Shown: one piece after another, positions 6,483-10,296 of the stretch
Position numbering within the stretch: the stretch's first letter is position 1
Layout: the number at the start of each line of letters is the position of its first letter
NCBI GenBank assembly: GCA_946527725.1
Contig: CAMMYM010000005.1
Span: forward strand, 1-35,660
Reading direction: 5' to 3'
Origin: an uncultured Clostridia bacterium
GTDB lineage: Bacteria; Bacillota; Clostridia; Christensenellales; Aristaeellaceae
DNA: 35,660 bases
The notes under the pieces: generated by a model
The model's database searches: none
What the model saw: only the letters and a program-made list of their open reading frames with translations
What the model was told of the DNA's origin: nothing
Translations under genes and position numbers: made by a program

Positions 6483-7313
6483 TCAGATCACGCCGCCTTC
6501 CACCACCAGGCTGTCTGCGTCGGCGTTTTCGCCGTAGGTTTCACGCAGGGTGGCTTCATAGTCTGCGTGGAAGAAGTTTTCTTCGCCCAGCTTCGCGATT
6601 TCTTCATTGATCCAGGCAAGCAGCGTTTCGTTGCCCTGGGATACGGCGGGATTAATGGTATCCAGGCTGCCAAGGGATTCAATGCCCACAGAGAAGCCGG
6701 GATTTTCAATGGCCCAGGCCAGCACTTCGGTGTTGTCGGTGGAGAGGGCGTCTCCCCGGCCGTCCAGCAGCGCGATATACGCTTCGGTGTAGCTGTCGTA
6801 TTTGGCCAGCTTCACTTCGGGATAATTCTGTTCAAAGAAAGTTTCGGCAGTGGTGCCCTTGGAGACAATCAGGGTTTTTCCTTTCAGCTGTTCAGCATCG
6901 GTGATCAGGGCGCTGTCGGGGCTGACCACCCCCAGAGCCACCTTCATATAGGGCAGGGCAAAGTCCACCTGGGTAGCACGGTCTTCCGTATAGGTAAAAT
7001 TCGCCAGCACGATATCCACCTTGAAGGACTGCAGGAATTCAATGCGATTGGGGGCATCGAGGGAAACGGGCACCAGCTCCACGCCCAAGTCTTCCGCCAG
7101 CCGCCTGGCCAGATACACGTCATAGCCCTGGTACTCACCGTATTCGTCGATATAACCGAAGGGTTTCTTGTCGGAGAACAAACCGATCACCAGTTTGCCG
7201 CTGGCTTTGATTTCATCCAGGGTACGATAGCCTTCCGCGGAGGCGGAAACGGTCAGGGAGAAAATGAGGGCCAGTGCCAGGGCCAGCACGAAAATTCTGT
7301 TCAGCTTCTTCAT
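6483..7313 (-). CDS. CjaA-like cysteine (amino acid) ABC transporter substrate-binding protein
   Basis: Signal peptide, then KLVIGLFSDKKPFGYIDEYGEYQGYDVYLARRLAEDL, NRIEFLQSFKVDIVLANFTYTEDRATQVDFALPYMKVALGVVSP, KGTTAETFF, C-terminus VVEGGVI; strongly resembles the CjaA/cysteine-binding subfamily. Confidence 0.85.
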   Translation of the reverse strand: MKKLNRIFVLALALALIFSLTVSASAEGYRTLDEIKASGKLVIGLFSDKKPFGYIDEYGEYQGYDVYLARRLAEDLGVELVPVSLDAPNRIEFLQSFKVDIVLANFTYTEDRATQVDFALPYMKVALGVVSPDSALITDAEQLKGKTLIVSKGTTAETFFEQNYPEVKLAKYDSYTEAYIALLDGRGDALSTDNTEVLAWAIENPGFSVGIESLGSLDTINPAVSQGNETLLAWINEEIAKLGEENFFHADYEATLRETYGENADADSLVVEGGVI

Positions 7314-7449
7314 GGAAAAATACCTTCCTTTCATTTTTCAAAAATTACTGATGCTGCGGGTTTTGTTTCATGATTCCGCAGGCGGGAAACATCGGTCCGT
7401 GGCACGGCTTATGTGGAGCATCTTCGATCTTCCTTTCAGCGCAAATGAA

Positions 7450-7478
7450 AAGAGCCTGGCACATGTTGTCCGGCTCCT
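7450..7478 (-). terminator. Candidate attenuator terminator in the cysteine-transporter leader
   Basis: AGGAGCC-GG-loop-CC-(A)-GGCTCTT stem followed by TTCATTT on the minus strand, between the leader ORF and the SBP gene. Confidence 0.55.
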
Positions 7479-7507
7479 GGGAAAGCGTTAATTGCTCCGG
7501 TACGGAA

Positions 7508-7585
7508 TCACCGCAAACAGAGCTCCAGGCGAGACGGACGCGCAGAGCCGCACATACAACAACACATCGCCGTCTGCTGCTTCAT
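7508..7585 (-). CDS. Poly-cysteine leader peptide MKQQTAMCCCMCGSARPSRLELCLR
   Basis: ATG 9 nt after GAGGAG; 5 Cys in 25 codons including UGU UGU UGU AUG UGC; lies downstream of a strong promoter and upstream of a terminator and a CjaA-like gene. Confidence 0.7.
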   Translation of the reverse strand: MKQQTAMCCCMCGSARPSRLELCLR

Positions 7586-7653
7586 GTGTGCCGTCTCCTC
7601 TCTTCGTCAGATCTTTTCCGGTTTATTACCCATTAACTCGATGGGTTATGTGG

Positions 7654-7682
7654 AATATAAGGCAAACCGTTTCGTTTGTCAA
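7654..7682 (-). promoter_or_regulatory. Sigma-A promoter for the leader peptide and SBP gene
   Basis: TTGACA (7682..7677), 17 bp, TATATT (7659..7654) on the minus strand; followed near +1 by hairpin ACCCAT-N7-ATGGGT. Confidence 0.85.
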
Positions 7683-7737
7683 TCCCTAAATTGTTTTTTG
7701 GCTGTACATCAGCGCCTGATATGGCAGGAATACGGTT

Positions 7738-8544
7738 TTAGAGCGGTTCCCCCTGCGGTTTGGCTGCCGCCTGGTCACGTTTGGAAGCATAGGTAAAGCT
7801 TTGCAGGAAGCGTTGCGCCCTTTCCGTTGCGGGAGCATGAAAAAACTTTTCCGGCGTTCCTTCTTCCAGCACCACACCTTCCTCCAGGAAAAGCACCCGG
7901 TCCGCAACAGCTTCGGCGAAACGCATTTCATGGGTCACGATGGCCATGGTCATGCCGCCCCGGGCCAGGTCGATGACGACGTTCAGTACTTCGCTGACCA
8001 TTTCCGGGTCAAGGGCTGCTGTGATTTCATCCAGGAGCAGGATCTCCGGATGCATCAGCATGGCGCGCACCAGGGCCACGCGCTGCTTCTGCCCGCCGGA
8101 CAGGGTACGGGGATAGACGTATGCTTTTTCCTTCAGTCCGACCCTCTCCAGCATCTGAAGCGCTTCCTGCTCCACTTCCTGGCGGTGCCTGCCTAAAGCT
8201 TTGGTAGGACCCAGCAGCAGGTTGTCCATCACTTTCATATGAGGAAACAGGTCGTAGCTTTGAAAAACCATGCCGATTTTTTGGCGGATCACGTGCAGTT
8301 CCTTTACCTGGCCCGATATTTTTTCATCCTGCAGCCAGATTTCACCCCTGTCGATGGTTTCCAGGCCGTTGATACAGCGAAGCAGTGTGCTTTTACCGCA
8401 TCCGCTTGGACCTACGATCACCACCACTTCACCTTCACGGATTTCAAGTGAAACGCCCCGAAGCACACCGGTACCGTCAAAGGATTTGTAAATATCGTTG
8501 ACCCGAAGGATCGTATCAGACATCTTTTGCACCCATCCTTTCAC
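7738..8544 (-). CDS. Polar amino acid ABC transporter ATP-binding protein (GlnQ-like)
   Basis: Walker A GPSGCGKST, LSGGQKQRVALVRA, LLLDEITAALDPE; alternative ATG at 8523. Confidence 0.95.
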   Translation of the reverse strand: MKGWVQKMSDTILRVNDIYKSFDGTGVLRGVSLEIREGEVVVIVGPSGCGKSTLLRCINGLETIDRGEIWLQDEKISGQVKELHVIRQKIGMVFQSYDLFPHMKVMDNLLLGPTKALGRHRQEVEQEALQMLERVGLKEKAYVYPRTLSGGQKQRVALVRAMLMHPEILLLDEITAALDPEMVSEVLNVVIDLARGGMTMAIVTHEMRFAEAVADRVLFLEEGVVLEEGTPEKFFHAPATERAQRFLQSFTYASKRDQAAAKPQGEPL

Positions 8545-9212
8545 GCCCAGCGCTTTTCAAGCTGTTTAGCCAAAAGGGAGAATGGCCAGCATACCAGGAA
8601 GTAAAGCAGGAATATCACAAAATACACCCAGAACGCGGCGTCAGGCTGCCTGTAAAACTGGCCGATAATCTGCTGGCCCACTTTCAATACCTCCGTCACG
8701 TTGATCATCTTCACCAATGCCGTGGTTTTAATGATGCGGGTGGACAGGTTGATAGCCTGGGGCAGCAGACGGCGGAGGGTTTGCGGAATCAGCACATAGA
8801 GATAAACCTGCCCTTTTGTCAGGCCTATGGCTGCCGCTGACTCTGTTTGATGCAGGGGAATGGAGGTCAGTGCCCCGCGAATCAGGTCACCCATTTCTGC
8901 CGTACCCCAGAACGTAAACACGATCACCGCGCTGGTTTCCCCGTCCAAATCCCAGCCGAACAGGCGGGCAAAGCCGAAGTATACCAGATACAGCAGCACC
9001 AGCTGCGGCATGAAGCGGACAATCTCCAGCCAAACCCGGCAGAAAACTTTGGCGATTTTCTTTTTGGACAGCATCAGCAGCCCGAACAGCAGGCCGAACA
9101 GGCAGGAAAGCCCGATGGTGATGAGTGCCAGGCGCAGCGTGACCCAGAGTCCGCCCAGGAGCCGCTGAAAATTGACGCCCCTAAACAGAACGCTGATTCC
9201 CAAATCCTGCAT
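8541..9212 (-). CDS. Amino acid ABC transporter permease (HisM/GlnP-like)
   Basis: Membrane protein with EMGDLIRGALTSIPLHQTESAAAIGLTKGQVYLYVLIPQTLRRLLPQ (amino-acid permease signature). Confidence 0.93.
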   Translation of the reverse strand: MQDLGISVLFRGVNFQRLLGGLWVTLRLALITIGLSCLFGLLFGLLMLSKKKIAKVFCRVWLEIVRFMPQLVLLYLVYFGFARLFGWDLDGETSAVIVFTFWGTAEMGDLIRGALTSIPLHQTESAAAIGLTKGQVYLYVLIPQTLRRLLPQAINLSTRIIKTTALVKMINVTEVLKVGQQIIGQFYRQPDAAFWVYFVIFLLYFLVCWPFSLLAKQLEKRWA

Positions 9213-9852
9213 AGCGGAGCCTCCTTTCCACCATCGTTGCGATCACAGACACAGGCAGCAGGATAACGAAATATGCCGCCACCAGCATGAACAGCACTTC
9301 CACCGTACGCCCGCCGCTGGTGCGCAGGGTGTCCGCCACGTTCATCAGGTCCATCATGGCCAGCACCGAAAACACGCTGGTTTCTTTAATAAGGAAAATC
9401 ACATTGGCAAACAGGGCCGGAACCGCCGTTGCCAGCGCCTGGGGAAAAACCACGTAGCGGATATTCTGCGTTCGGGTCAGGCCGATGCACATTCCCGCCT
9501 CAACCTGTGCTTTGTCCACCGATTCCAGGCCGCTCCGGAAAGCCTCCGCCATATATGCGCCGCCTAAAAATGTAAGCCCGATCACGGCGCAGGCTTCCGC
9601 GCTGAAGCGGACGCCTACCCTCGGCAGGCCGGCATACAGGAAAAAGAGCTGCACCAGCAACGGCGTATTCCTGGCCAATTCGACGTACCCCGCTGCGATC
9701 TGCCGAAAAACGGGCACACGAAAATAACGCGCCAGGCAGCATATCATCCCAAGCGCCAGGGAACACAGGACCCCATACAACCCAAACCGCAGCGTTACCC
9801 ACGCACCGCCTGTATAATCCCGTACATGGGAAGCAATGAATGACCAGTCCAC
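9181..9852 (-). CDS. Amino acid ABC transporter permease
   Basis: ARNTPLLVQLFFLYAGLP, YMAEAFRSGLESVDKAQVEAGMCIGLTRTQNIRYVVFPQAL; start placed at GTG 9852 with SD GGAGG (ORF extends to TTG 9891). Confidence 0.92.
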   Translation of the reverse strand: MDWSFIASHVRDYTGGAWVTLRFGLYGVLCSLALGMICCLARYFRVPVFRQIAAGYVELARNTPLLVQLFFLYAGLPRVGVRFSAEACAVIGLTFLGGAYMAEAFRSGLESVDKAQVEAGMCIGLTRTQNIRYVVFPQALATAVPALFANVIFLIKETSVFSVLAMMDLMNVADTLRTSGGRTVEVLFMLVAAYFVILLPVSVIATMVERRLRYAGFGNQRSV

Positions 9853-10296
9853 TTGATCCTCCGGGTAACCAGGCCGGGCAGCGGCAATCAAGCCGGCAGC
9901 GCAGCCTGAAACTGTATAACAATTTTATGCAACAGGCAAAAAAAAGGAAGGATCTCCCTGCTTTTTTTGTGTATTTGCATTCGGGCATCTGCGTAAGAAG
10001 CGCTCTTCGCTCACTGCCGGGGAAAGCTTTCTTTCCGGGTTCTTGCTTCCATGATCTTTATTTCACGGCATCTTCATTTGCCGCATTACACTGTCAGCAC
10101 ACTGTATGCTCTGTATTTCCGTCTTGTCAGTATATTGTTTTTCCCGATATATTCTGTTTGTCCTGAGTCCTTTCCTGTGGTATTCTGTATGTTAAGGAAA
10201 AGCAGTTGCCAGGCCGTCCGGCGGCCGGCGGATGCGTGCAGGTGAGATGCTGGCTCCTGCCGGTCAGGGTAATTTGTGCGGAAAACGCTTCGATTC

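Follow-up and report, generated by a model that had tools for sequence, protein, structure and literature searches.

A putative cysteine-responsive leader-peptide attenuator before a CjaA-type binding-protein gene of uncultured Clostridia

In the window, i.e., the whole stretch of 35,660 nucleotides of an uncultured Clostridia bacterium analysed here, the gene for a likely cysteine-binding protein (SBP) of an ABC transporter is preceded by a short ORF rich in Cys codons and by a hairpin. Do these elements form a switch that responds to cysteine, and by what means? T-boxes, S-boxes and CymR are the usual means ascribed to Bacillota for sensing amino-acid starvation at sulfur genes. With a conserved family of cysteine leader-peptide attenuators, ribosome-mediated attenuation would gain a new clade and a new codon.

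The leader and the gene that follows it

The preliminary description of the locus had listed a promoter, a Shine-Dalgarno sequence (SD), a 25-codon ORF with Cys codons and a U-tailed hairpin before the SBP gene, all of which were confirmed on the minus strand. The features are, from the transporter genes upstream to the putatively regulated gene:

8541..9212 and 9181..9891, minus strand: transporter permease genes, upstream
7738..8544, minus strand: transporter ATPase gene, upstream
7682..7654, minus strand: sigma-70-type promoter, TTGACA-17-TATATT, predicted to drive leader and SBP gene
7628..7646, minus strand: palindrome ACCCATCGAGTTAATGGGT directly past the -10, operator or 5' RNA hairpin
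7598..7591, minus strand: SD GGAGACGG ahead of the leader ORF
7591..7597, minus strand: arm A, the leader SD GAGACGG, predicted partner of arm B (anti-antiterminator)
7585..7508, minus strand: leader ORF of 25 codons, Cys-rich, MKQQTAMCCCMCGSARPSRLELCLR
7550..7564, minus strand: putative regulatory Cys codons 8, 9, 10 and 12 (UGU UGU UGU AUG UGC)
7531..7539, minus strand: arm B GUCCGUCUC, codons of Arg-Pro-Ser, predicted partner of A or C
7468..7476, minus strand: arm C GAGCCGGAC, terminator 5' arm, predicted alternative partner of B (antiterminator)
7448..7478, minus strand: intrinsic terminator (C:D) with U tail, weak here and strong in relatives
7421..7368, minus strand: second short ORF MLHISRATDRCFPPAES, past the terminator and ahead of the SBP gene
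6483..7313, minus strand, start at 7313: CjaA-type SBP of the ABC transporter, putatively the regulated gene

Besides codons 8, 9, 10 and 12, codon 23 of the leader ORF also specifies Cys. The ATPase and permease genes immediately upstream match the SBP in transporter type. The SBP belongs to the SBP_bac_3 family and is similar over its full length to solved structures, its best relatives being 1xt8 (E 2e-81), which we take to be CjaA, and 2yjp (E 1e-72), a cysteine-binding protein of Neisseria. These matches bear out the suspected resemblance to the CjaA cysteine-binding family. CjaA has been reported to bind cysteine (PMC4178425). By similarity, the SBP is an ortholog of CjaA and of 2yjp, and, in the absence of ligand data, cysteine is its likely substrate.

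The folding of this single leader carries little of the argument. Its folding energy is unremarkable and not significant (z -1.8). The terminator contains one mismatch and is weak, with -11.7 kcal/mol where the median of all leaders is -22 kcal/mol; a simple terminator scan of the window did not list the hairpin at 7478..7448. It is conservation among relatives, and not the fold of a single sequence, that raises the arrangement above chance.

Conservation and alternative pairings among relatives

A strong SBP homolog was found in 40 of 201 family genomes, and a scan of a genome collection contributed 80 more loci, mostly labeled as uncultured Clostridia or Clostridiales and in a few cases as Christensenella or Christensenellaceae. 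Most close loci contain a Cys-rich short ORF 170-330 nt upstream of the SBP gene. After removal of identical ones, 48 sequence-distinct leaders remained, from uncultured, Christensenellales-like Clostridia and located before orthologous SBPs. Alignment of these 5' leaders, the check that had been proposed, revealed that the Cys codons are conserved: each leader contains a cluster of two to five, at shifting positions, and Cys accounts for 212 of the 1179 leader residues (18%). The leaders fall into two main sequence groups, one ending in RPS-x4-CLR and the other containing MCCMCR-x-RRPxPCR. Nearly all are preceded by a promoter like TTGACA-17-TATATT, and the terminator lies 16-33 nt past the leader stop codon. 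The window's leader matches a covariance model with E = 4e-38, a score that is high by construction, since the model was built from these leaders.

The leader has a limited distribution. The same search found no such leader before SBP orthologs outside the clade (65-75% identity, in other Clostridia and in spirochaetes), and an order-level search for the SBP gave no strong ortholog outside the family among the genomes sampled. Within the family, the leader is absent before the SBP orthologs at L013, L024, L044 and L056, and is thus dispensable in some lineages. It is also lacking before three SBP paralogs of ~60% identity (L220-L222), where the gene closely follows the ATPase gene.

Arm B has two alternative partners, the leader SD (A) and the terminator 5' arm (C). 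These pairings were evaluated in 27 non-redundant leaders by comparing the duplex energies of a leader's own arms with those of arms swapped between leaders, using 20,000 permutations. The energies, own vs swapped, were -16.7 vs -14.3 kcal/mol for A:B, -15.8 vs -13.5 kcal/mol for B:C and -23.3 vs -12.7 kcal/mol for the terminator helix C:D, with 0/20,000 permutations in each case, and the control pairings A:C and B:D were far weaker. Kinship between the leaders was not fully removed in this test, and in group 2 by itself (8 leaders) A:B and B:C fell short of significance. Column counts on the alignment revealed compensatory changes in A:B and in C:D. In B:C, 90% of the alignment is paired, but its columns show little covariation of their own, because B and C are each tied to other partners as well. 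At L010, where B is changed, GGAGGUUGG can still pair with CCGGCCUCC as A:B, and the B:C helix reaches -23 kcal/mol.

A different pairing had been put forward in the preliminary description, i.e., that of CGGCUCU at 7550..7544 with the terminator 5' arm at 7471..7477. It exists in this leader and in those of near relatives without being the conserved pairing, and since it directly follows the Cys codons, a stalled ribosome would cover it; it was rejected as the switch. Judged from the alignments, the conserved switch is the predicted choice of arm B (7539..7531) between the leader ribosome-binding site (7597..7591) and the terminator 5' arm (7476..7468).

Cysteine leaders before other sulfur genes

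Searched with covariance models made from the two leader groups, about 49 of 309 family genomes gave strong matches, and all strong-match loci that were fetched lie before the SBP gene, except that in G188. Among the weaker matches are other Cys leaders with terminators, which, together with two loci found by protein search, precede the following genes:

L173: O-acetylhomoserine (OAH) sulfhydrylase gene
L145, L169 and L181, and by protein search L186 and L189: DAACS-family symporter genes
L170 and L177: genes for MetN-like ATPases
L165: gene for a cystine-type SBP

The NCBIfam matches of the symporters are to GltP/DctA, with scores below the cut-offs; perhaps, they are TcyP-like and mediate cystine uptake, which is an inference. 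The leaders suggest that several transporters in uncultured gut bacteria act on cysteine or cystine.

In total, 12 leaders of OAH sulfhydrylase genes were collected (L194-L205), including one in the genome studied here (L195, on contig C11). They encode MCCRM..SRAC-like peptides (MCCRML.SRAC), are followed by a terminator and form a family distinct from the CjaA-type leaders. Their B:C helix is a perfect 10-bp duplex, CUCCCGGGCA:UGCCCGGGAG; two of the 12 have CUCCCGGACA:UGUCCGGGAG instead, a compensatory variant. They are an independent case of the same switch logic. In the genome studied here, the covariance models gave three weak matches, two at loci without a Cys ORF and the third, on C11, near the OAH sulfhydrylase gene; the leader of that gene was itself located through a protein search. 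Weak matches in other families of the class were dismissed as noise, as none of the four that were checked had a Cys ORF; at class level, a search with model R1, which reaches close relatives only, gave nothing convincing.

At three further OAH sulfhydrylase genes (L193, L207 and L209), short ORFs closely upstream end in Cys codons (..FRFGRMCHCL, ..FRFHRMCRCCCRI and ..NGRMCPCLC, respectively) without a terminator. Possibly, these are a translational type of Cys leader.

Two other elements of the locus also recur. A palindrome related to that at 7646..7628 is found in many leaders. It is similar to CCTATTGACATAGTAGG, a sequence that, in the same genome, overlaps the -35 of the OAH sulfhydrylase gene and, with one mismatch, the -35 of an iscS-iscU operon (palindrome loci L195/L223; L224). 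In the relative L013, an Rrf2-family gene adjoins the SBP gene. The palindrome is a probable operator of the Rrf2/IscR/CymR type, or else a 5' RNA hairpin; inferred from sequence alone, an Rrf2-type repressor likely acts above the attenuator. ORFs like the second short ORF are present in 27 loci, most with the motif A-[TKR]-D-R-C, which also occurs as TDACR or TDVCR with different codons, and a similar ORF also precedes other Cys-leader genes (L145, L173). No RNA structure was found for the second ORF, and a genome-wide pattern search for it gave no convincing further sites.

The independent Cys leaders before sulfur genes suggest a regulon. It is possible, without being probable, that Christensenellales-like Clostridia possess a cysteine-attenuation regulon in which several independently evolved Cys-codon leaders, with the ribosome-binding site as an arm in the CjaA case, control genes of sulfhydrylation and of cysteine, cystine and methionine uptake beneath an Rrf2-type repressor, and in which a second Cys uORF acts as a translational sensor before the CjaA-type gene.

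Mode of control and competing explanations

An attenuator of the amino-acid type is expected to combine a short ORF of the translated type, led by an SD and containing a run of control codons that match the pathway, with an intrinsic terminator between this ORF and the gene and with an alternative antiterminator that excludes the terminator. The leader described here meets the first expectation, the second with a terminator that is weak in this genome and strong in relatives, and the third computationally. Very probably, it is a ribosome-mediated, cysteine-responsive transcription attenuator, the reading already proposed for it and now supported by the conserved Cys codons, the conserved terminator, the likely cysteine substrate and the similar leaders before other genes of sulfur amino acids. 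Translation, stalling and the direction of control are inferred, without experimental proof.

In the proposed mechanism, RNA polymerase would start from the promoter (7682..7654), and translation of the 25-codon leader would begin. With ample Cys-tRNA, the ribosome would reach the stop codon, covering arm B or leaving it behind; B would then re-pair with the leader ribosome-binding site (A:B) and C with D, and transcription would end near 7448. When Cys-tRNA is scarce, the ribosome would stall at the Cys cluster, some 10-13 nt upstream of B, and hold A and B apart, so that the antiterminator B:C forms instead of the terminator and the gene for the cysteine-binding protein is transcribed. Such a switch would be compact and testable, with an antiterminator arm in competition with the ribosome-binding site of the leader.

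From the final Cys codon of the cluster to the start of arm B there are about 10 nt (median), which puts B close to the leading edge of a stalled ribosome. In partition-function calculations on the leaders, a mean of 11.0 B:C pairs was obtained with the ribosome placed on the first Cys codon, and 1.7 B:C and 7.2 A:B pairs with the ribosome at the stop codon; in the latter simulation, part of B is masked by construction. For the window's own leader, the shift is small, with 8.2 B:C pairs without a ribosome, 8.5 when stalled and 3.5 at the stop codon. The position of B and these pair counts therefore indicate that stalling favors the antiterminator. The direction of control had been considered undecidable from sequence; the ribosome-placement folding model leads us to infer readthrough upon starvation. 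Cysteine starvation should switch the SBP gene on in this model, which is not a measurement. There is no support from expression, Ribo-seq or Term-seq data, and the evidence consists of conservation and folding.

Could the peptide rather than the codons do the sensing? A nascent leader peptide that arrests in the exit tunnel through its RPS...CLR motif and senses cysteine or another molecule there would fit the good conservation of RPSxxxxCLR in one group and of RPxPCR in the other. The conserved codons, however, coincide with RNA arm B and change along with A and C, L010 alters those very codons with compensation in A and C, the OAH sulfhydrylase leaders encode other residues with identical RNA logic, and the N-termini and Cys positions vary, all of which makes arrest very unlikely. 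Cys-rich short peptides also exist in copper leaders of the CutF/CruL type, and as kindred peptides they make it conceivable that the leader senses metal or redox state to control the downstream gene. As every downstream gene identified is likely involved in the uptake of cysteine, cystine or methionine or in sulfhydrylation, this is scarcely credible.

The hairpin might also be a mere internal terminator that sets the stoichiometry of ATPase and SBP, the Cys ORF being incidental. The leader does sit between these two genes, and such use is reported for cellulolytic Clostridia (PMC9045158). Against this, a promoter lies ahead of the leader, the Cys codons are conserved, and OAH sulfhydrylase and DAACS symporter genes likewise have Cys-rich ORFs and terminators ahead of them; the proposal is very improbable. 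Cysteine-responsive attenuation remains the preferred reading.

The type of mechanism is already known, from trp-type attenuators and, closest to the present case, from Cys uORFs in mycobacteria and before cysS of Rhodobacterales; for Clostridia, no earlier report was found. No cysteine leader peptide in Bacillota was found in the literature search, which is weak evidence, as most subscription papers were outside the search. At the gathering score, Rfam gave no relevant match (T-box or other leader) in the window or in 20 other loci, and NCBIfam matched none of six Cys-leader and two second-ORF peptides, with HMMER filters being weak on short peptides.

As in trp/his/leu-type attenuators, control codons lie in a leader ORF, and antiterminator and terminator exclude each other, but here the codon is that of cysteine and arm 1 is the leader's ribosome-binding site. 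The polycysteine leaders of mycobacteria are said, in work by Canestrari from 2020, to be cysteine-responsive. Mycobacterial and actinobacterial polycysteine leaders likewise are poly-Cys short ORFs controlling sulfur genes, but they are leaderless ORFs (in mycobacteria) whose Cys runs lie close to the stop codon, and a conserved terminator hairpin has not been found for them (PMC1262725). The leader described here does not conform to that type, as it contains an SD, Cys codons at positions 8-12 of 25 and a terminator. In Bacilli, hisS/hisZ are preceded by histidine leader peptides (PMC2965389), which are classical amino-acid leader peptides in Bacillota as well, but with a different amino acid, different genes and a different sequence. 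For the uORFC-8-2 motif upstream of cysS in Rhodobacterales, ribosome-mediated attenuation by Cys-tRNA has been proposed (PMC8632094). It had no Rfam match in the window, and it is uncertain whether the Rfam library includes it. Like the leader described here, it has tandem Cys codons in an upstream ORF, together with stems and an intrinsic terminator (PMC8632094). However, uORFC-8-2 is found in Alphaproteobacteria before cysS only, with Cys codons 14-15 inside the first stem (PMC8632094), whereas the leaders of these Clostridia precede transporter and sulfhydrylase genes, their Cys cluster lies before arm B, and the ribosome-binding site of the leader is itself a pairing arm.
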